In this document: in pieces, positions 4,791 through 40,542 of the stretch | Numbering within the stretch: the first letter of the stretch is position 1 | How the letters are laid out: every line of letters begins with the position of its first letter | Origin: a virus | Direction: 5' to 3' (one strand) | DNA: 40,542 nt | Virus record (IMG/VR): IMGVR_UViG_3300017782_000056 | Location: 1 to 40,542 of that record | Program-made: the position numbers and the translations under genes | The notes under the pieces: model-generated | Database searches by the model: none | The model's input: only the letters and a program-made list of their open reading frames with translations | Told to the model about the DNA's origin: nothing

Positions 4791-5225
4791 TTAATCACCT
4801 AGCAACTTCCTTAGCTTCTCCTTTTCCTTGTTTCTCGTGTCAGAAATCAAAATAGTACCACCAACAAAAACTGCAGCACCACCTAGCGACAACCCCTTAA
4901 TTGTTGTCTGCCTACGTGCCAGTTGATCATCTAGCTCTTGAATGCTGAGCCCCTCCTGCTCAATATCCGTCACCGCCAATACCAAGGCCGTACTTAATGC
5001 CGTAATGCCCAAAACTTGCAATACAGAGCCACCTGTTTTGCGTTCATAGATGTTTGTCCATGACAAGTATATTGTGGCCGGTACATCATCGCTACGCTCG
5101 ACCATTATGGTAGGTTCATTGATTACTTCATTTCCTTTCTTGAGTATTTTGTAACCCGGATCATCTTGTGCACACAAGCAACCCCCAGCCATGACCACAC
5201 ATATAAGTACTATTACTTTTTTCAT
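4791..5225 (-). CDS. Exported/membrane accessory protein (probable lysogenic-conversion gene)
   Basis: 144 residues on the strand opposite the tail operon. Residues 1-20 form a signal peptide or lipoprotein-like leader (MKKVIVLICVVMAGGCLCAQ). Two further hydrophobic stretches lie near residues 67-85 (VLQVLGITALSTALVLAV) and 113-128 (LSLGGAAVFVGGTILI), with a charged C terminus. Orientation against the structural genes, its own -7 box just upstream, and an envelope location fit a gene expressed in the lysogen, perhaps altering the host surface or blocking superinfection. The mature cleavage site could be the signal-peptidase II type at GGC or type I after CLCAQ. No family recognised. Confidence 0.65.
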   Translation of the reverse strand: MKKVIVLICVVMAGGCLCAQDDPGYKILKKGNEVINEPTIMVERSDDVPATIYLSWTNIYERKTGGSVLQVLGITALSTALVLAVTDIEQEGLSIQELDDQLARRQTTIKGLSLGGAAVFVGGTILISDTRNKEKEKLRKLLGD

Positions 5226-7047: not shown

Positions 7048-7090
7048 TAACGATCAGGTAAAAAGCGGAAACAACGGTTAAATAACTACT
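7048..7090 (+). repeat. Direct repeat upstream of small gene 1 (second copy 7357-7401)
   Basis: This stretch begins TAACGATCAGGTAA, continues AAGCGGA and ends TAAATAACTAC; the copy at 7357-7401 has the same three blocks with a diverged middle. Each ends a few bases before a start codon (7096 and 7406), and in the second copy the first TAA is the stop codon of the preceding gene. It is a repeated intergenic module of a gene cassette, perhaps carrying a promoter or recombination site. Confidence 0.7.
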
Positions 7091-7095
7091 GAAAC

Positions 7096-7359
7096 ATGAT
7101 AACTGAAAAAATCAATCAAATTGAGAAGCTGGTAACTGTTCCAAGTGCAGAAATAGATCCAGACGGTGCTAGCAATGCTATGCAAATACTGATACACTTA
7201 ACCGAGCTAAGAGATCTAGTTGATTCTGCTTTTTTACCGCCTGTTAGCGAGATCGATTTGCTAATGGAGTTTGATGTATGGATAAGCGCAAGATTCAAGC
7301 AAGAGTATAAAATAGAAGAGTCAAAGGAAATAATGCAAAAGTTCCTGAGTTCTCGCTAA
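7096..7359 (+). CDS. Small protein, 87 residues, unknown
   Basis: Acidic, helical, no membrane segment. The segment LRDLVDSAFLPPVSE resembles AELVKESYSLPPVIG in the next gene, and both genes are preceded by the same ~43-bp repeat, so the two may be diverged duplicates or members of one cassette family. No enzyme motif seen. Confidence 0.6.
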   Translation: MITEKINQIEKLVTVPSAEIDPDGASNAMQILIHLTELRDLVDSAFLPPVSEIDLLMEFDVWISARFKQEYKIEESKEIMQKFLSSR

Positions 7360-7405
7360 CGATCAGGTAAGAAGCGGATTATTTGACGGGTAAATAACTA
7401 CAATA

Positions 7406-7636
7406 ATGGATATAAAAGAAAAACTAAAGCAACGATTTAATGTGCCTGAAAATTGGGATAAGCACGACTATGCTATCCATAGATATAGCTTTGATGATTT
7501 GCTAGAAGCAGCAGAACTAGTCAAAGAATCTTATTCCTTACCGCCTGTTATTGGTTGTGATCATAATTTTAAACCACATGAGCATACGGCATTGTGGGAA
7601 TTTGATAAATGTACTAAATGCGGCAAAATATCATAA
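7406..7636 (+). CDS. Small zinc-ribbon-like protein, 76 residues
   Basis: The C-terminal half carries a CxH...CxxC arrangement (CDHNFKPHEHT, then FDKCTKCGKIS), suggesting one zinc site formed by Cys/His pairs. The N-terminal half is helical and shares an LPPV turn with the preceding small gene. It is preceded by the second copy of the repeat at 7357-7401. Downstream lies the 7644-7663 repeat and then a convergent repressor-like gene. Role unknown; a nucleic-acid or protein binding function is plausible. Confidence 0.6.
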   Translation: MDIKEKLKQRFNVPENWDKHDYAIHRYSFDDLLEAAELVKESYSLPPVIGCDHNFKPHEHTALWEFDKCTKCGKIS

Positions 7637-7726: not shown

Positions 7727-8137
7727 TTAGATCTTTTTCAAGTCTTGCATGACGCGCAGTAGCTCCTCACGATAGCGCTTGTTTTCAGCGACCAGCTTGG
7801 CCGACTCAGCCTTGAGCGCGTCGACACTCGCCGCATCTCCGGCGGCAGTGCCATCGATCAGCATATTGAGATATTGTAGTTGCGGGTCTTCAGCTCTGTC
7901 AAGACTACTGATCTCACTGATGACCGTCTGTATTTGCGGAAAGTACAAGCGAGGGTCCACCCCTATTATATTCGCAATACGGATCACCTTATAGCCATCG
8001 ATCAAGTGATCATTGCCCGGCGACAGCCAGCGATTGAGCGTGTTGCGATCTACAGGATATTGTGTGTATACATCCTTCTTTGATGCGCCACTGGCTTCAA
8101 ACATTTTCAATAGCTTCTCAGAGGAATATACGGGCAT
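7727..8137 (-). CDS. Repressor-like HTH protein with coiled-coil tail (paralog of 9079-9492)
   Basis: 136 residues. Residues ~5-60 form an XRE-like helix-turn-helix domain (SGASKKDVYTQYPVDRNTLNRWL, then IRIANIIGVDPRLYFP). Residues ~95-136 are a Lys/Glu/Leu-rich coiled coil, probably for dimerisation. Its pattern (YS-E--KM---SG-S---YT ... RIA---G----YFP) matches the protein encoded at 9079-9492, so the two are paralogs. There is no peptidase domain of the LexA/CI type. It is transcribed away from 8320 and converges on the 7406 gene. It may control the accessory region or compete with its paralog; its operator is not evident. Confidence 0.7.
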   Translation of the reverse strand: MPVYSSEKLLKMFEASGASKKDVYTQYPVDRNTLNRWLSPGNDHLIDGYKVIRIANIIGVDPRLYFPQIQTVISEISSLDRAEDPQLQYLNMLIDGTAAGDAASVDALKAESAKLVAENKRYREELLRVMQDLKKI

Positions 8138-8532: not shown

Positions 8533-8564
8533 TTTGCTTTTCACATACCGATAACCTAAGATTG
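8533..8564 (+). promoter_or_regulatory. Consensus Bacteroidota promoter for the structured leader and gene 8738
   Basis: TTTG at 8533-8536, 20-nt spacer, TAAGATTG at 8557-8564, matching TTTG-N19/20-TAnnTTTG except for one base. The start of transcription is expected near 8568, giving a leader of ~170 nt. The equivalent promoter of the paralog (30018-30049) has the same spacing. Confidence 0.7.
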
Positions 8565-8567
8565 AAG

Positions 8568-8740
8568 TGCAAAAATATATTACTATTCACTTAACTACTT
8601 CACTTCACTATGATTTATCGGAATGCACTCATAACAATATGGGATCGGGGTTGGGTTAGTCCCTTTATTAGTAGTTATATTAATATGTTTTTGCGAGCCC
8701 TCGATCCCTCTTTTTTTTCACAAAACGCAAAAACAAAATG
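8568..8740 (+). ncRNA. Structured mRNA leader with alternative start-codon-region pairing (copy A)
   Basis: Conserved TTTATCGGAA at 8614-8623. Outer stem 8641-8650 (GGGATCGGGG) with 8698-8708 (CCC-T-CGATCCC). Hairpin GGG-TTAGT-CCC at 8653-8663, then TATTA/TAATA at 8666-8685. The strand TGTTTTTGCG (8686-8695) pairs perfectly with CGCAAAAACA (8726-8735), two bases before the start codon, forming a pseudoknot across the outer stem. The transcript's 5' end (GCAAAAA, 8569-8575) offers the same partner, so a second, exclusive pairing is possible. Copy B at 30053-30218 has the same order of elements with different bases in the stems. This looks like a cis-acting translational switch; class unknown to me. 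Confidence 0.65.
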
Positions 8741-9001
8741 CAAACATCAGAAAAACAATTCGAGACCCTAGAGGTCACCTCGTTTCAGTACCAGGAGTTG
8801 CTCAACTTGCTCACGCTCTTTGACAGCTCCACAGATCTCAGGAAAGAAATGTGGCAGCTCATGATCGACGCTACCAACAACGCGGACTTGGAGGGTAGCT
8901 TTCACACGGCTCCATCCGATCATATATTTAACATGCTTCAAATCACCGAAGCGCTAAGCGGATTATACGATGCGCTCACAAGGAAAGAGTTTAAAAGTTA
9001 A
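8738..9001 (+). CDS. Small soluble protein, 87 residues, paralog of 30214-30474
   Basis: Shares with the 86-residue product of 30214 the core FQYQ-LL-L-TL, the motif LR-E-WQL-IDATN and an ending of K/RKEF. The middle (THTAPSD-type loop) differs. Predicted all-helical, no membrane segment, no Cys. The gene is a self-contained unit: consensus promoter, ~170-nt structured leader, one gene, terminator (9024-9052). It lies between two repressor-like genes, whereas its paralog lies in the late region. Such isolated, strongly terminated units are typical of genes expressed from a prophage. Function unknown; defence, immunity or a regulatory role are possible. Confidence 0.75.
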   Translation: MQTSEKQFETLEVTSFQYQELLNLLTLFDSSTDLRKEMWQLMIDATNNADLEGSFHTAPSDHIFNMLQITEALSGLYDALTRKEFKS

Positions 9002-9023: not shown

Positions 9024-9052
9024 AGCCTGATCATAAGATCAGGCTTTTTTTA
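9024..9052 (+). terminator. Intrinsic terminator after gene 8738
   Basis: AGCCTGATC-ATAA-GATCAGGCT followed by seven T. Almost the same hairpin (AAGCCTGATC-ACTA-GATCAGGCTT) follows the paralogous gene at 30490-30520, and both are followed by GCCCTACnTCnAGCGCC. Confidence 0.9.
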
Positions 9053-9078
9053 TGCCCTACTTCCAGCGCCGAGGTATA

Positions 9079-9492
9079 CTACTGCGCCGCGTTATGGGCG
9101 CGCTCTTTGAGCAGCTCGATCATTTCATCTTGCAGTCGCTTATTTTCCAGAAGGGCAGATATATAGTCATCACGAAAGCGCTTCGCCTCGATGACCAAGT
9201 CTTCCATCAGCGACTTAACCTCTTTGACCATCGTGTGGTTTTGATAATGCTCCACCGGCTCATCTAGTATCAGCGCCACATCTTTTTTGAGCTCTGGGAA
9301 GTAGTCCGCCACCCTTGAGCCTGTCGCCTGGGCTATCCTCAATATCTTATCCCGAGTCAGCCGACTGTTGTGCACTGGCTGGCGCATATCGTGAAACATT
9401 TGCTTACTCATCCCTGCCTTAGTGTAGATAGCTACGTGAGACATTCCACTGTCAGCCACCATTTTTTGAAACATTTCGGTACTATATGTCAT
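9079..9492 (-). CDS. Probable lysogeny repressor (HTH plus coiled coil)
   Basis: 137 residues. HTH region at ~residues 12-60 (SGMSHVAIYTKAGMSKQMFHDM, then ILRIAQATGSRVADYFP) and a coiled coil at ~95-132 (LLENKRLQDEMIELLKERA). It is divergent from the Cro-like gene at 9645, and three 13-bp operators lie in the gap between them, so it is the better candidate for the master repressor. Like its paralog it has no self-cleavage domain, so induction would need an antirepressor or another signal rather than RecA-stimulated cleavage. The minus-strand sequence upstream of its start shares a 16-base word with the region in front of gene 27614. Confidence 0.75.
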   Translation of the reverse strand: MTYSTEMFQKMVADSGMSHVAIYTKAGMSKQMFHDMRQPVHNSRLTRDKILRIAQATGSRVADYFPELKKDVALILDEPVEHYQNHTMVKEVKSLMEDLVIEAKRFRDDYISALLENKRLQDEMIELLKERAHNAAQ

Positions 9493-9542: not shown

Positions 9543-9573
9543 TTTGCATTTCTGTCTTAAAGTACTACTTTTG
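9543..9573 (+). promoter_or_regulatory. Rightward early promoter (PR-like)
   Basis: TTTG at 9543-9546, 19-nt spacer, TACTTTTG at 9566-9573, a full match to the Bacteroidota consensus. The first operator (9559-9571) overlaps the -7 box, so repressor binding would block it. It drives the early genes starting at 9645. Confidence 0.75.
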
Positions 9574-9613
9574 GGTATCAAAGTACTACTTTGGGGTACT
9601 AAAGTAGTACTTT
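9559..9613. promoter_or_regulatory. Three-site repressor operator
   Basis: AAAGTACTACTTT at 9559-9571 and 9580-9592, and its reverse complement AAAGTAGTACTTT at 9601-9613. The start-to-start distance is exactly 21 bp both times, two helical turns, so all three sites face the same side of the DNA. The 8-bp linkers differ. The layout is that of a lambda-type tripartite operator between divergent repressor and Cro-like genes. Confidence 0.88.
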
Positions 9614-9644
9614 GAAGTCGTAAAACAAAAAACCGCAAGCAAGC

Positions 9645-9920
9645 ATGCCGCAAACCAAAATCATGAATAAAATTATTTGGAATAATATCGAGAGAGCCAT
9701 TGCCCTCAAGTTTCCGCAGGATAAAGAGGAGCAGCGGCTTATCAAGTTTATTATATGTGATAAAGTGTTTTGGCAGAACAAAACCCGCTGGACCCGCATA
9801 TTGAACAACTCCAGCCAGCCGACCATGTACGAGCTCATCCTTATCTCTGATATCCTCAAAAAGCCTGTGGAATCCTTGGTGGAATACGGAGAATTTATCC
9901 ATGAGATGACGCAAAGCTAA
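9645..9920 (+). CDS. Cro-like HTH regulator
   Basis: 91 residues. The segment QNKTRWTRILNNSSQPTMYE followed by LILISDILKKPVESLVEYG fits an XRE/Cro helix-turn-helix in which a recognition helix is followed by the usual 'L--IS--L-----LV' helix. It is the first gene of the rightward early operon, directly downstream of the operator cluster and divergent from the probable repressor. Start could also be the Met at residue 7. It is expected to compete for the three operators and favour lytic growth; this is inferred from position and fold. Confidence 0.65.
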   Translation: MPQTKIMNKIIWNNIERAIALKFPQDKEEQRLIKFIICDKVFWQNKTRWTRILNNSSQPTMYELILISDILKKPVESLVEYGEFIHEMTQS

Positions 9921-14269: not shown

Positions 14270-14277
14270 AAACATGA

Positions 14278-14597
14278 GTGTCCCGATTTTTTTACGTCAA
14301 ATATTCATAAAACAAGGTTTAAACCACTGTAAAGGCTGTTTTTGCCCTGAAAAATCGGGACACAATCGGGACACCTCAATGTGTAACTCCTTGACTATAA
14401 GCCAGATAGAGCGGGACAATCGGGACACCTATGTGTCCCGAAATCGGGACACTTTAGTGTCCCGATTGTCCCGACGCATTCTACTGACTATCAGGGACTT
14501 AGGTTTGTGGGTGTCCCGATTGTGTCCCGATAAAAAGGGGGCTAAGTCGCTGATTATCAGTGATTTTATAAAAACACCCCCCTTAAAAATCGGGACA
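14278..14597. repeat. Iteron cluster, probable replication origin
   Basis: Twelve copies of CGGGACA or its complement TGTCCCG within 320 bp, most extended to ATCGGGACA(C). Plus-orientation copies start near 14356, 14367, 14412, 14421, 14445 and 14591; minus-orientation copies near 14279, 14434, 14458, 14467, 14512 and 14523. They form several head-to-head pairs (for example 14434-14451). The cluster follows the helicase gene and ends in an AT-rich stretch (GATTTTATAAAAA, 14563-14575). A 118-codon frame across it (14274-14630) translates the repeats into NRDT/VSR peptides and is probably not a gene. Confidence 0.75.
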
Positions 14598-14626
14598 TTT
14601 CAAAAAGTAGTAAAAGAGGTGCTGAA

Positions 14627-14890
14627 ATGAGTCTATTACTACCAATCGTATCGATAAAGAGTGAAACTGTAAGGCAGCAGCTCGGTATAAAAAAGGGCTT
14701 AAATGAGAGCGCCCAGCGCCGCGCAGTATTAACAAAGCTGGCAAAGCTTGGGGTCACGGTCTTTGATGGTGAGTTTATCTCTGTAGAGCAGATGGCGACC
14801 ATCGGACAGACAAAAACAGTATTTAAAAAACTAAATAAATCAGAAACAGACTGGACATCAGGCTCCTCTTTTAATGAGGGGGGTGTTTAA
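14627..14890 (+). CDS. Small protein, 87 residues, unknown
   Basis: First gene after the iterons. Basic and helical at the N terminus (SVKSETVRQQLGIKKG-type start), then a beta-like segment (GVTVFDGEFISVEQMA). Could be a small DNA-binding protein; no family recognised. Confidence 0.55.
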   Translation: MSLLLPIVSIKSETVRQQLGIKKGLNESAQRRAVLTKLAKLGVTVFDGEFISVEQMATIGQTKTVFKKLNKSETDWTSGSSFNEGGV

Positions 14891-19135: not shown

Positions 19136-19969
19136 ATGATTGCGGATTTACAAAAACTAGAACAAAAAATGTCAATTGAAGGGTATAAAAAGACTACTAT
19201 AAAAGCTTACTTATATGAGTTTAGAGTATTGCTTCGATTCTATAATGCCAGCGCAGCTGAACGTGTTTCGACTAAAAACATAGAAGATTATTTAAATCAT
19301 TTACTTAAACGCAAATACAGCTGGTCTAAGATTAACCTTGCCTTAAATGCAATATTCTTCTATTACAACCGGGTAGCTGAGAATCCTAGAAAAGTGAAGA
19401 ATATTAAACGACCGAAAGAAAACAAAAAACTACCAAATGTTTTGTCTCAAAATGAAGTGAAATTGCTCATTAATAATGTTTCAAACATAAAACACAAAGC
19501 TATATTATTGACCATCTATTCCGCGGGTTTAAGAGTCTCCGAGTTGATAAATCTTAAATTAACGGACATTGATAGCGCTCAAAATTGCATTTGGATAAGA
19601 GGCGGAAAAGGGGGCAAGGATCGTCAAACAATATTAGGGGAGTCAACATTGCAATTTTTAAGATTGTATTTTTTACAATACAAACCAAAAATCTATTTAT
19701 TCAATGGGCAGGATGGCTTAAGATACAGCGCCACATCGATAAGGAAATTCTTAAAAGTATCGACTAAAACTTCGGGGATTAAAAAAACAGTCACTCCTCA
19801 CGTACTTCGGCATTCTTTCGCAACTCATTTAATCGAAAATGGCTATGATATTACTTATGTCCAGAAGCTTCTCGGACACACTAAAATAACCACGACTGAA
19901 CAGTATATTCATCTAACCACAACCGCTGTTGAAAGCCCCGCGGATAAATTGTTTAATTTTGCGGCATGA
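19136..19969 (+). CDS. XerC/XerD-like tyrosine recombinase
   Basis: 277 residues. N-terminal SAM-like core-binding domain (~1-85), then the catalytic domain with Arg133 (SAGLRVSEL), a Lys in GGKGGKDR, HVLRH at 222-226 with Arg225, LGH with His248 and the nucleophile Tyr257. All catalytic residues are present. It lacks the long N-terminal arm-binding domain of typical phage integrases and so resembles Xer-type or integron-type enzymes. It overlaps the second recombinase gene by 4 bases, so the two are made together. Possible jobs: assisting phage integration, or acting on the attC-like palindromes among the methylase genes. Confidence 0.88.
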   Translation: MIADLQKLEQKMSIEGYKKTTIKAYLYEFRVLLRFYNASAAERVSTKNIEDYLNHLLKRKYSWSKINLALNAIFFYYNRVAENPRKVKNIKRPKENKKLPNVLSQNEVKLLINNVSNIKHKAILLTIYSAGLRVSELINLKLTDIDSAQNCIWIRGGKGGKDRQTILGESTLQFLRLYFLQYKPKIYLFNGQDGLRYSATSIRKFLKVSTKTSGIKKTVTPHVLRHSFATHLIENGYDITYVQKLLGHTKITTTEQYIHLTTTAVESPADKLFNFAA

Positions 19970-21186
19970 AGCAGCCCCCGAAAGGAAGCGGTCTATATCT
20001 TATCACGCTACAGTCCGGCGAACAAAAGTATCAATCAAAACTCTGGAGCCCTCCCCTTAATAGAATTGGAAAAAAAAAGACATGGAAGACTAAAAACTAC
20101 AACGAGGCAGCTCAACAGCATTACGCTTTCAAACAAATCTACGAAGCGAACAACTATGATATAATTGAAACTCTCAAACCCGCAGAATCAACTCGGCCAA
20201 ATTTAATAGTACAATGTGCTGCATTTTATGAGCGCTACCTCAAAGATGATCCGGCTATTGTTGCAAAACATCAAGCGCAGAACCGAGATGAGAAGTATAT
20301 TAAAAACACGGTAGTATATATTAAAACATTCCTCATTGCGCTCAAAAAAGCGGGGATTAAAGTTTCTCATTTGAAAATAAAGGCGGTAGATGATGCCGTA
20401 GTTGGTGTATTTTATAATCACCTAGAGTCTAGGTATAACAATGGAGAGATTGGTGAGGTTACATGGAACCGCCATGTTACGGCCTGCCGCAACTGGTTCA
20501 ACTGCCTAATAAAAAAATTTGAATACGATATTAAAAACCCATTTTCCAGCATCTCTTATAAATCTGTTTTCACTGATCCGCAATTTCTGGAAATGAGCGA
20601 GATGGACTTGTTTTTAAAAACCATCACGGTAGAAAATGCGATGGGTAAGAAAGGGAATCAGCAAGTCAACTATTACAGGCCGTGGCTTAAAGAACTCTAT
20701 TTGCTTGACATGTTTATTGGAGCACGTCCAAAAGAATTTTTTGCATTGACCTGGCTGGATGTTACTGACAACTATATTGTTGTTTGTAATTCCAAGAAAA
20801 CAAATAATAATAACCTGAAGTCAGACATTGAGTATGTATATATTCATCATCAACTCGCTTCTCTTCTTTTGAAATTAAGAGCTAAATCTGAAAAAGAAAC
20901 AGATTATATAATACAGCCACGCTGGAAAGACCGGAAGACTCTTCAGTCTTTAGCTTCAAAAGCTTTTATTCACTTTTTTAGGCAAACGGGAATTGATAAA
21001 AAAATAACCTTTTACAATCTCCGACACACTTATATTAATAATTTATATGCTCAGATTGGAGAGTCTGCCTTGAATGAGAAGCATAAGAAAGAAACAGCTA
21101 TTAAGCACTATCTCAGTAAGAAAAGAAAGCAAGAAGCTCAGCAGGGGAAAGAGCTATTCAACATAGATGTCTCCGCACATATCTAG
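19966..21186 (+). CDS. Phage integrase (tyrosine recombinase) next to attP
   Basis: 406 residues. An N-terminal domain (~1-90, basic, beta-like start GSGLYLITLQSGEQKYQSK) is of the size expected for arm-site binding. Then a SAM-like domain and a catalytic domain with Arg254 (GARPKEF), Arg353 in NLRHTY, His373 and the probable nucleophile Tyr382 (IKHYL). His373 to Tyr382 spacing is the canonical nine residues although the LGH motif is degenerate. The stop is 6 bases before the left arm-type repeats of attP, the classical int-attP arrangement. It should catalyse insertion into the tRNA-Thr gene. Confidence 0.85.
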   Translation: MKQPPKGSGLYLITLQSGEQKYQSKLWSPPLNRIGKKKTWKTKNYNEAAQQHYAFKQIYEANNYDIIETLKPAESTRPNLIVQCAAFYERYLKDDPAIVAKHQAQNRDEKYIKNTVVYIKTFLIALKKAGIKVSHLKIKAVDDAVVGVFYNHLESRYNNGEIGEVTWNRHVTACRNWFNCLIKKFEYDIKNPFSSISYKSVFTDPQFLEMSEMDLFLKTITVENAMGKKGNQQVNYYRPWLKELYLLDMFIGARPKEFFALTWLDVTDNYIVVCNSKKTNNNNLKSDIEYVYIHHQLASLLLKLRAKSEKETDYIIQPRWKDRKTLQSLASKAFIHFFRQTGIDKKITFYNLRHTYINNLYAQIGESALNEKHKKETAIKHYLSKKRKQEAQQGKELFNIDVSAHI

Positions 21187-21241: not shown

Positions 21242-21278
21242 AAAAAACCGCTTAATTTTAAAAATTAAGCGGTTTTTT
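21242..21278. terminator. Bidirectional terminator beside the tRNA core
   Basis: A-run, CCGCTTAATTTT pairing with AAAATTAAGCGG, T-run: about 17 paired bases around a 3-nt loop. On the minus strand it follows the tRNA-Thr 3' end directly. So attP carries the tRNA end plus a terminator and would restore both to the host gene after insertion. It also ends integrase transcription. Confidence 0.88.
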
Positions 21279-21281
21279 AAG

Positions 21282-21329
21282 AGCCTCCTATCGGGATCGA
21301 ACCAATGACCTACTGATTACAAGTCAGTT
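21282..21329 (-). other. attP core: 3' part of tRNA-Thr(UGU)
   Basis: Read on the minus strand this is the anticodon arm (stem ACTGA, loop CTTGTAA with anticodon TGT, stem TCAGT), variable region, T arm (ATTGG-TTCGATC-CCGAT) and acceptor strand AGGAGGC of a tRNA-Thr. The 5' half is absent, so it is not a functional tRNA gene but the crossover region shared with the host attB. CCA is not encoded. Homology to the host tRNA should start near the anticodon stem. Confidence 0.9.
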
Positions 21330-21394
21330 TGAAAAAGGCGTTTAATTCATTTAAACGCAGTATGGCACTATACTTTTTGACGAAAACCACACAA

Positions 21395-30017: not shown

Positions 30018-30049
30018 TTTGTATTTATATCTCTGATAACTTACGCTTG
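30018..30049 (+). promoter_or_regulatory. Promoter for structured leader B and gene 30214
   Basis: TTTG at 30018-30021, 20-nt spacer, TACGCTTG at 30042-30049. Start of transcription expected near 30053. From the -7 box to the conserved TTTATCGGAA (30097-30106) is 47 nt, compared with 49 nt in copy A. Confidence 0.65.
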
Positions 30050-30052
30050 TAA

Positions 30053-30218
30053 CAGCCAAACACTTTGGATTGATACATTCTGTAACAATCTTTTAATTTA
30101 TCGGAAACCTGAATATGAGGTCAGGTGGGTTTATCCCAACAATTCTACACAGAAATGTGTCCATTGTGTTTGGCGACCCTGACCTCAAATTTTTAATTTA
30201 AAAGCCAAACACAATGGA
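30053..30218 (+). ncRNA. Structured mRNA leader with alternative start-codon pairing (copy B)
   Basis: Conserved TTTATCGGAA at 30097-30106. Outer stem TGAGGTCAGG (30116-30125)/CCTGACCTCA (30178-30187), hairpin TGGG-TTTAT-CCCA (30126-30138), hairpin ACACA-GAAA-TGTGT (30147-30160). TCCATTGTGTTTGGC (30160-30174) pairs over 15 bases with 30204-30218, which includes the start codon at 30214. The 5' end of the transcript holds the same GCCAAACAC (30055-30063) as the start region (30204-30212), so the inhibitory strand can pair with either. Stems differ in sequence from copy A but not in arrangement, which supports the fold. Confidence 0.7.
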
Positions 30219-30474
30219 ACACACACACGACACAGAAACAATTGAACTCTATGAGTTTCAGTATCAGCAACTGCTCGATCTTCACACGCTTTACAGTGGA
30301 CCCGAAGAGTTAAGAGAAGAACTCTGGCAACTTTACATCGACGCTACGAATCGGGCTCCATTAGCTGAGCGCGGCAGTATGGAGCGGTTTAGTGATCAAG
30401 CTTTTGCAGTATTTAAACTCAGCGAGCTACTTTCCACACTATGGACTATCCTTGCCAAGAAGGAATTTGAATAA
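30214..30474 (+). CDS. Small soluble protein, 86 residues, paralog of 8738-9001
   Basis: EFQYQQLLDLHTLYSGPEELR, ELWQLYIDATNRA and the C terminus AKKEFE match the product of 8738. It is a separate transcription unit within the late region: promoter, structured leader, one gene, terminator. The presence of the complete unit twice, diverged throughout, indicates an old duplication or independent captures of a mobile unit. Function unknown. An acidic, helical protein of this size could be an anti-defence, anti-repressor or immunity protein. Confidence 0.75.
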   Translation: MEHTHDTETIELYEFQYQQLLDLHTLYSGPEELREELWQLYIDATNRAPLAERGSMERFSDQAFAVFKLSELLSTLWTILAKKEFE

Positions 30475-30489
30475 CATTTAAGAACACAA

Positions 30490-30520
30490 AAGCCTGATCA
30501 CTAGATCAGGCTTTTTTTTT
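30490..30520 (+). terminator. Intrinsic terminator after gene 30214
   Basis: AAGCCTGATC-ACTA-GATCAGGCTT followed by nine T in total. Nearly the same as the terminator of the paralogous unit at 9024-9052. Confidence 0.92.
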
Positions 30521-30585
30521 GCCCTACATCGAGCGCCCTTTTTATTGCTAAAAACACGCAATAATTAAAAAACAAGCAACGCTTG

Positions 30586-39465: not shown

Positions 39466-40449
39466 ATGGCTTTAACTATCATCAGCGCACCATCTTCGAT
39501 TTGCTTTAGCAAAAACCTCATAAAATACATCGTGAATACGGATGCAGACAAGGAAGTGCGCGCGCGTATATGGATTGAGGATTCCCCCTACTCAGCTACA
39601 TATTCATTTATCACAGAATTAAAGTCTATCCCTGACTCATCGGGCAATTGTACTTTTCAATTATCTCAGATCCTTGACGAGAATCTAGACTATCATACCC
39701 CCTCTTTTTTCGCAGACGAAGAGGTGATCAATTCGGCTCGCCGATTTTATGTCGAGTTCTATGAATATGATGCTGATGATTTAGTTCTTCACGATGAAGT
39801 ATATAGCGCTGATGGCAGTTATCAGTCAATTGCCGCGCTGGATGATGCGCTCAATTATGTAATCATTCAAGAGTCTATCCCTTATAGCACCGCAAACCAA
39901 TTTAGATTTTTATTGAACGTACAATCTCCAGATTTGGCCTATAACCTCGACACGGAAAGCTGGGCTTCTATTGACCCTAACTTCCCATTTGACGAATATC
40001 GACCTCCTGCAAAAGTAAAAGTAACAATTTACGAAGGTTCATTCCCTGCGCTGACTACTTCTAGCGTTGCAGCTGTGTTGAAGGGCGGTGAAAGTATTGT
40101 CAATTTCTTTTTAGAAATACAAGCGCCTGTCATCTCATTATCACCTCAAAGCGACACGCAGATTAATGTAATAACATCTAGCACACAATATGAAACTGAA
40201 ATAGAATGTTCAGATGATGATGGGGACACATGGTTAAGTGTAGCAACGCTTGAGGTTGGTGTCAATCTCTATGAGCATACATCACTTTCAGCAGGTACTT
40301 ATACATACAGAAGTAAAGCGACGCTTGATGACACGTCAAGCAAATACAGCAAGGAAGTATCCGTGACATTATTGTCTTCAGCTTTTCAGCCTGACGGCTC
40401 AATAGTGGCTGCAAACATCATTTATTCAAACGATCAAATTTACGCATAA
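39466..40449 (+). CDS. Tail tip / distal tail protein with Ig-like C terminus
   Basis: 327 residues, beta-rich throughout. Residues ~225-310 read as an Ig/FN3-type domain (APVISLSPQSDTQINVI, YETEIECSDDDGDTW, YTYRSKATLDDTS). The C terminus runs to the start codon of the tailspike gene, with which its stop overlaps by one base. Likely part of the distal tail that links tube to spike. Confidence 0.65.
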   Translation: MALTIISAPSSICFSKNLIKYIVNTDADKEVRARIWIEDSPYSATYSFITELKSIPDSSGNCTFQLSQILDENLDYHTPSFFADEEVINSARRFYVEFYEYDADDLVLHDEVYSADGSYQSIAALDDALNYVIIQESIPYSTANQFRFLLNVQSPDLAYNLDTESWASIDPNFPFDEYRPPAKVKVTIYEGSFPALTTSSVAAVLKGGESIVNFFLEIQAPVISLSPQSDTQINVITSSTQYETEIECSDDDGDTWLSVATLEVGVNLYEHTSLSAGTYTYRSKATLDDTSSKYSKEVSVTLLSSAFQPDGSIVAANIIYSNDQIYA

Positions 40450-40542
40450 TGAAAACACTACAGACAGGCAGAGCAGGAGAAGGAACATTATTAGTTGCGA
40501 ATGTTAACGAGGCTAAAAGACAGATTGAGCAAAATATAATAG
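40449..40542 (+). CDS. Second copy of the tailspike gene start (partial)
   Basis: First 31 codons of the tailspike gene, identical to 30-123. It is a duplicate created by writing a circular sequence linearly, not a second gene. Confidence 0.9.
   Translation, partial: MKTLQTGRAGEGTLLVANVNEAKRQIEQNII

Follow-up and report, generated by a model that had tools for sequence, protein, structure and literature searches.

Duplicated phage leaders with two mutually exclusive helices: a putative translational switch at the start region

Two genes of one phage genome, here called A and B, are each preceded by a leader in which a single strand in the middle is complementary both to the 5' end of the predicted transcript and to the start region. 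These helices are mutually exclusive, one of them lies over the initiation region, and they are present in both leaders at the level of sequence and calculated energy. We hypothesise that each leader acts in cis as a bistable translational switch of a monocistronic phage gene, a reading to which we give a probability of roughly 0.58. The first-pass annotation of this DNA had already suggested a translational switch. Its logic of exclusive pairing is upheld by the sequence and the controls, whereas we infer the translational control itself, with both states forming in cells and affecting translation.

The phage genome

The window, meaning the whole stretch of DNA analysed, is a virus contig of 40,542 bases with a G+C content of 41%. 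Its first 123 bases are repeated exactly at the end (1-123 = 40420-40542), so that the contig is probably a phage genome in its complete, circularly closed form. It carries integrase genes, a head protease, a terminase and a tape-measure gene, and one short stretch has more than 90% DNA identity to Polaribacter phages; together these point to a host that is probably a marine flavobacterium.

Some further features of the genome are recorded here. There are two tyrosine-type integrase genes (19136-19969 and 19966-21186), adjacent and overlapping. Just after them, in the region 21242-21339, a palindrome (21242-21278) lies beside a minus-strand tRNA-like Rfam match of 58 nt, which is not called by ARAGORN; the region is possibly the remnant of an attachment site. 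At 14354-14531, inside the ORF 14274-14630, is an imperfect self-inverted stretch of 180 nt with 74% identity to its own reverse complement. A stretch of 72-78 nt is repeated at 73% (7048-7119 and 7357-7432) ahead of two small neighbouring ORFs, and is another duplicated leader, distinct from A and B.

The two cassettes

A and B each form a cassette of promoter, leader, ORF and terminator.

8533..8564, plus strand: promoter of A, TTTG-20 nt-TAAGATTG, predicted +1 at 8569
8738..9001, plus strand: ORF of A, 87 aa, paralogue of the B ORF (48% identity over 80 aa, E 5e-22)
9024..9051, plus strand: intrinsic terminator of A, stem the same as in B (47 bp at 89% identity)
30018..30049, plus strand: promoter of B, Bacteroidota type, TTTG-20 nt-TACGCTTG, predicted +1 at 30054-30055
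30214..30474, plus strand: ORF of B, 86 aa, an orphan with a low-confidence three-helix model, paralogue of the A ORF
30488..30520, plus strand: intrinsic terminator of B, stem common to both cassettes
7727-8137 and 9079-9492, minus strand: pair of regulator-like paralogues flanking cassette A (25% identity, E 8e-10)

The Bacteroidota-type promoter pattern (TTTG, 20 nt, TAnnnTTG) occurs at six sites in the whole window, A and B among them. Both deviate from the norm, missing the -7 consensus at -8 and having a rare G at -9, a point against the reading as a switch. In F. johnsoniae the -7 element occupies -12 to -5, with transcription beginning 4-5 nt beyond it (PMC6847099), and the +1 positions listed above are predicted from this spacing.

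Similarity between A and B spans the cassette from the promoter to just past the terminator, whose stem is AGCCTGATC/GATCAGGCT in both, and is at background level outside. Since the downstream ORFs are paralogous, the leaders have been duplicated along with their genes, and the cassettes are moron-like monocistronic units. The identity runs on beyond the terminators (9052-9070 and 30519-30537, GCCCTACnTCnAGCGCC), with 89% over 47 bp in all, and perhaps marks a duplication or insertion boundary. As read from their sequence, the two products are charged, Trp-containing, helical-looking proteins. AlphaFold gives a three-helix model of low confidence (mean pLDDT 54).

Cassette B has lysis-type genes on one side and the head protease on the other, and cassette A adjoins the two regulator-like paralogues, neither of which has a Pfam helix-turn-helix match. 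Three palindromic operator-like repeats (AAAGTACTACTTT) are found at 9558-9614, between the minus-strand regulator-like gene and a plus-strand gene at 9645-9920; this cluster looks like an immunity operator region.

Anatomy of the leaders

Leader A comprises 8569-8737 and leader B 30054-30213. Below, ON denotes pairing of the mid-leader (inhibitory) strand with the 5' strand, and OFF its pairing with the start-region strand.

Leader A:
8569..8586, plus strand: 5' strand, ON partner, 16/18 pairs with the mid-leader strand
8614..8623, plus strand: conserved block TTTATCGGAA
8641..8650, plus strand: outer stem, 5' side, pairs with 8698-8708
8653..8663, plus strand: hairpin 1, GGG-TTAGT-CCC
8666..8685, plus strand: hairpin 2, 8 A/U-rich pairs with loop GTTA
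8686..8695, plus strand: inhibitory (anti-start) strand, start-pairing part, complementary to 8726-8735
8698..8708, plus strand: outer stem, 3' side, with one bulged T (T8701)
8709..8725, plus strand: U/A-rich linker, 17 nt, which gives the outer stem a terminator-like look
8726..8735, plus strand: start-region strand, OFF partner, 10/10 pairs, ending 2 nt before the ATG

Leader B:
30055..30069, plus strand: 5' strand, ON partner, the first bases of the transcript, complementary to the inhibitory strand
30097..30106, plus strand: conserved block TTTATCGGAA, predicted mostly single-stranded
30116..30125, plus strand: outer stem, 5' side, pairs with 30178-30187
30126..30138, plus strand: hairpin 1, TGGG-TTTAT-CCCA
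30147..30160, plus strand: hairpin 2, ACACA-GAAA-TGTGT
30160..30174, plus strand: inhibitory (anti-start) strand, complementary to both the 5' strand and the start strand
30178..30187, plus strand: outer stem, 3' side, pairs with 30116-30125
30188..30203, plus strand: 16-nt linker rich in A/U, part of the would-be H-type pseudoknot
30204..30218, plus strand: start-region strand, OFF partner, 15/15 pairs, including the ATG at 30214-30216

The elements that the first-pass annotation described as common to the two leaders were all found in place, as was the pairing of the inhibitory strand with the start region over 10 bp in A and 15 bp, including the ATG, in B. In full, the inhibitory strand of A occupies 8677-8695, of which 8677-8694 is complementary to the 5' strand. 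The 5' strand of B is a near-copy of its start region with the ATG destroyed. In both leaders the predicted +1 coincides with the first base of the 5' strand.

A ten-pair outer stem encloses the two hairpins and the mid-leader strand in both leaders. Because it encloses that strand, ON or OFF pairing would each make an H-type pseudoknot. The linkers of the start pseudoknot are alike, 2/17 nt in A and 3/16 nt in B.

The motif TGGGTTNNTCCC is found at 8652 and 30126, with no other exact copies in the window. It shares one reading frame with TTTATCGGAA and the GCGA block in both copies, and in A an ATG at 8610 opens a 53-codon frame overlapping the main start. A short peptide (IYR...WVxP) could be encoded by the conserved blocks, and its translation might control the gene. 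We consider such a leader peptide very unlikely: a shared frame has a chance of about 1/9, the frame in B has no ATG, GTG or TTG start within the predicted transcript, and, where the copies share a degenerate amino acid, the codon is the same in 6/6 cases, compared with 13/36 for the main ORFs. Conservation of the wobble bases implies constraint on the nucleotides themselves, and favours selection at the RNA level.

Covariation between A and B

The comparative data consist of two copies, A and B, both from one phage genome, which is the chief weakness of the case. MAFFT alignments set the pairing strands one base out of register, and pairs were counted by explicit coordinates instead. Between A and B there are 3-4 compensated pairs in the start helix, depending on register, 4 in the 5'-strand helix and 3 in the outer stem. 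Among the pairs compared, none is broken in any of the three helices. When the partner strand was slid by 1-3 positions as a control, 5-9 of 9-10 pairs broke. When an equal number of substitutions was placed at random in a Monte Carlo calculation, all pairs survived with a frequency of 0.0001-0.0025 (0.01-0.25%) per helix, rough figures that ignore the freedom of register choice. The covariation claimed in the first-pass annotation is thus borne out.

Four positions change jointly in all three strands, which would be hard to explain unless both helices are under selection. The claim that the inhibitory strand can pair with either of two mutually exclusive strands, one being the start region, is supported by sequence and controls alike. 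The covariation is the strongest evidence for the observation on the leaders.

Independently, a covariance model was built from the core of B alone; it contains neither the start helix nor the 5' helix. In the 40 kb, A is its best non-trivial match (17.1 bits, E 0.07), the sole higher non-self match being the reverse complement of B; on a 301-nt stretch, A is found at E 0.0005.

The duplication of the cassettes is clear over their whole length, promoter to terminator, and the 5' strand and start strand of B are direct repeats. One could suppose from this that the RNA has no function, the similarity being left over from duplication or the repeats being DNA-level operators. Neutral decay would however break pairs, and 0 of the compared pairs are broken in three helices that have 3-4 double changes each. 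If the repeats were a shared operator, one would expect them to be conserved in both copies, but these strands differ between A and B. We regard this explanation as unlikely.

Chance controls for each leader

Of 2000 dinucleotide shuffles, 9 for A and 0 for B reached a perfect start complement of the observed length; the three-strand bistable score was reached in 3/1000 and 0/1000 respectively. Among 700 ATG-anchored windows of the genome B ranks first, while 49 (7%) reach the bistability score of A. Compared with shuffles, the fold of B is far more stable (z -4.3) and that of A is no better (z -1.0). Leader A is weak on its own: with 7% of windows reaching its score, it would not convince without B.

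A 10-nt start complement was also noted at the minus-strand gene 4791-5225. It was rejected as a low-complexity A/T run upstream of the likely promoter.

The proposed switch

The outer stem would hold the inhibitory strand in its loop. During transcription this strand would pair first with the 5' end of the transcript, leaving the start region free (ON). Once the start region has been transcribed, the inhibitory strand would be displaced onto it and the start hidden (OFF). Each state, together with the outer stem, would be an H-type pseudoknot.

The calculated helix energies for ON and OFF lie near each other, at -15.3 and -13.1 kcal/mol in A, and -23.5 and -29.0 kcal/mol in B. Pairing between the copies is weak (-4.3 to -9.9 kcal/mol), and each leader should therefore be specific to itself. 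Folding of the growing transcript, limited to nested structures, has the ON helix forming once the middle strand is complete. In the same nested folds, completion of the start region shifts B to OFF (0.97); A keeps its ON or outer-stem pairing, and its OFF value does not exceed 0.06. The predicted defaults thus differ, B being closed and A mostly not closed, and we read the pair as a strand-exchange switch that would have opposite defaults in its two copies. The paralogy of the ORFs, the placing of +1 on the 5' strand and the different predicted settings of the copies go beyond the first-pass annotation.

Flavobacteria initiate without a Shine-Dalgarno sequence, initiation being tuned by structure and by A at -3/-6 (PMC6847099). 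Hiding the start region should therefore matter: covering -12 to -3, as in A, or the start codon, as in B, should block initiation.

The outer stem can be viewed in another way. In A it is followed by TCTTTTTTTT, and stem and U tract could form a conditional terminator modulated by pairing of the 5' strand, the truncated RNA of about 150 nt perhaps acting antisense on the full-length mRNA. Transcription attenuation of this kind seems improbable. The corresponding tract in B is only AAATTTTTAA; the stem is compatible with both alternative helices, in a pseudoknot, and exclusive with neither; and the covariation of the inhibitory strand with the start region would be left unexplained.

For a translational switch, the conserved single-stranded block and the loop of hairpin 1 would be candidate sites for binding a trigger. 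As the leader travels with the gene family, the gene product is the first suspect. The trigger is most plausibly the encoded 86/87-aa protein, acting by autoregulation; this is a guess, with somewhat worse than even odds. A wider proposal, which we hold tentatively and on balance doubt, is that the leaders represent a new class of regulatory RNA. In such a pseudoknotted leader, the transcript would begin with nucleotides that imitate the start region and compete with it for one loop strand, forming a Shine-Dalgarno-independent switch whose conserved TTTATCGGAA/GGGTTNNTCCC sensor reads a signal or the gene product.

Translation control by leaders is much less understood in Bacteroidota, with their Shine-Dalgarno-less starts, than in E. 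coli. If the proposed switch is real, a compact start-hiding leader with its 5' end as built-in competitor, present in one phage as two natural copies of different tuning, offers a ready test both of Shine-Dalgarno-independent switching and of co-transcriptional strand exchange. With A beside regulator-like genes and B before head genes, each switch may set the timing of a different phase in the life cycle of the phage.

Searches for homologues

The first-pass annotation suggested an Rfam scan and a search for further homologues. In Rfam 15, the regions 8568-8740 and 30053-30218 matched no family even at E 10, and no homologue came from viral contigs, phages, plasmids or several hundred Bacteroidota genomes. 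For the 86/87-aa ORFs, no homologue was found in Pfam, PHROGs, NCBIfam or PADLOC (one weak PHROGs match, E 0.11), in the PDB, by tblastn of phages and plasmids, by back-translated patterns on viral and genome contigs, or by a profile search of roughly 700 Bacteroidota genomes (overlapping samples), in which the phage's own genome, as control, yields exactly two matches.

Relatives were identified through the terminase (L004-L009, G078 and G180), and their head genes are related to those of the phage. No ORF homologue was found in them, and the region upstream of the head protease in G078, read directly, contains no cassette. A match in L006 at 5875 was rejected, as it lies inside a tape-measure ORF. 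Patterns of the leader DNA gave 2 + 2 matches in 2.9 million viral contigs, judged to be chance since they have neither the leader layout nor a related downstream ORF. The protein pattern WQLxxDATN gave 29 stretches, none homologous; one of them, in L043, has only WQLYIDATN in common.

A covariance model (R1) found nothing in 396 Bacteroidota genomes, a search of low power given that R1 scores A at only 17 bits. For an aptamer conserved across many genomes, the collections searched, of limited coverage, hold no copy beyond this genome.

Comparison with known systems

The closest parallels in architecture are translational pseudoknot riboswitches such as the preQ1 family (PMC11625349) and SAM-II, where, as here, an H-type pseudoknot in the 5' leader hides or frees the initiation region. 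The phage leaders differ in lacking an Rfam match, in hiding a start region without a Shine-Dalgarno sequence rather than a Shine-Dalgarno itself, and in having the 5' end of the transcript as the rival partner.

The hok/Sok and AapA type I toxin mRNAs (PMC6733600) likewise have competing metastable helices, and the order in which these form during transcription determines whether the start region is accessible. In hok/Sok the mRNA folds back, its 5' end pairing with its 3' end. The competing strand in the phage leaders is the extreme 5' end and pairs inside the leader, at its middle. The hok likeness drawn in the first-pass annotation holds only for the general idea of exclusive pairing; no toxin-like peptide was seen, nor, among promoters of the flavobacterial type, an antisense promoter. 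A type I toxin-antitoxin-like module whose leader is metastable, on the logic of hok, AapA or TisB, would have in its favour the monocistronic cassette with its own promoter and terminator, the start occlusion and the involvement of a 5'-end strand. We think it extremely unlikely: in place of a short hydrophobic toxin ORF there are charged products of 86/87 aa, by reading not hydrophobic peptides, that form a conserved three-helix-like family, and a search of the minus strand for the flavobacterial-type promoter alone (TTTG-N19-21-TA..TTG) found none at either locus.

The 5' leader of tisB mRNA (PMC7708055) is similarly structured: a pseudoknot lies close to the 5' end, and the initiation site is sequestered. 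This mRNA uses 5' processing and a standby site, for which there is no evidence in the phage leaders.

Among phages, the T4 gene 32 pseudoknot and the alternative structures of lambda cIII are autoregulated leaders, in which the product or the RNA conformers set their own translation. The sequences and proteins are unrelated to those described here, and here there are two paralogous copies in one genome. Overall, the phage leaders follow the logic of translational riboswitches and metastable toxin mRNAs, in a variant that would occlude the start and has the 5' end of the same transcript as competitor.
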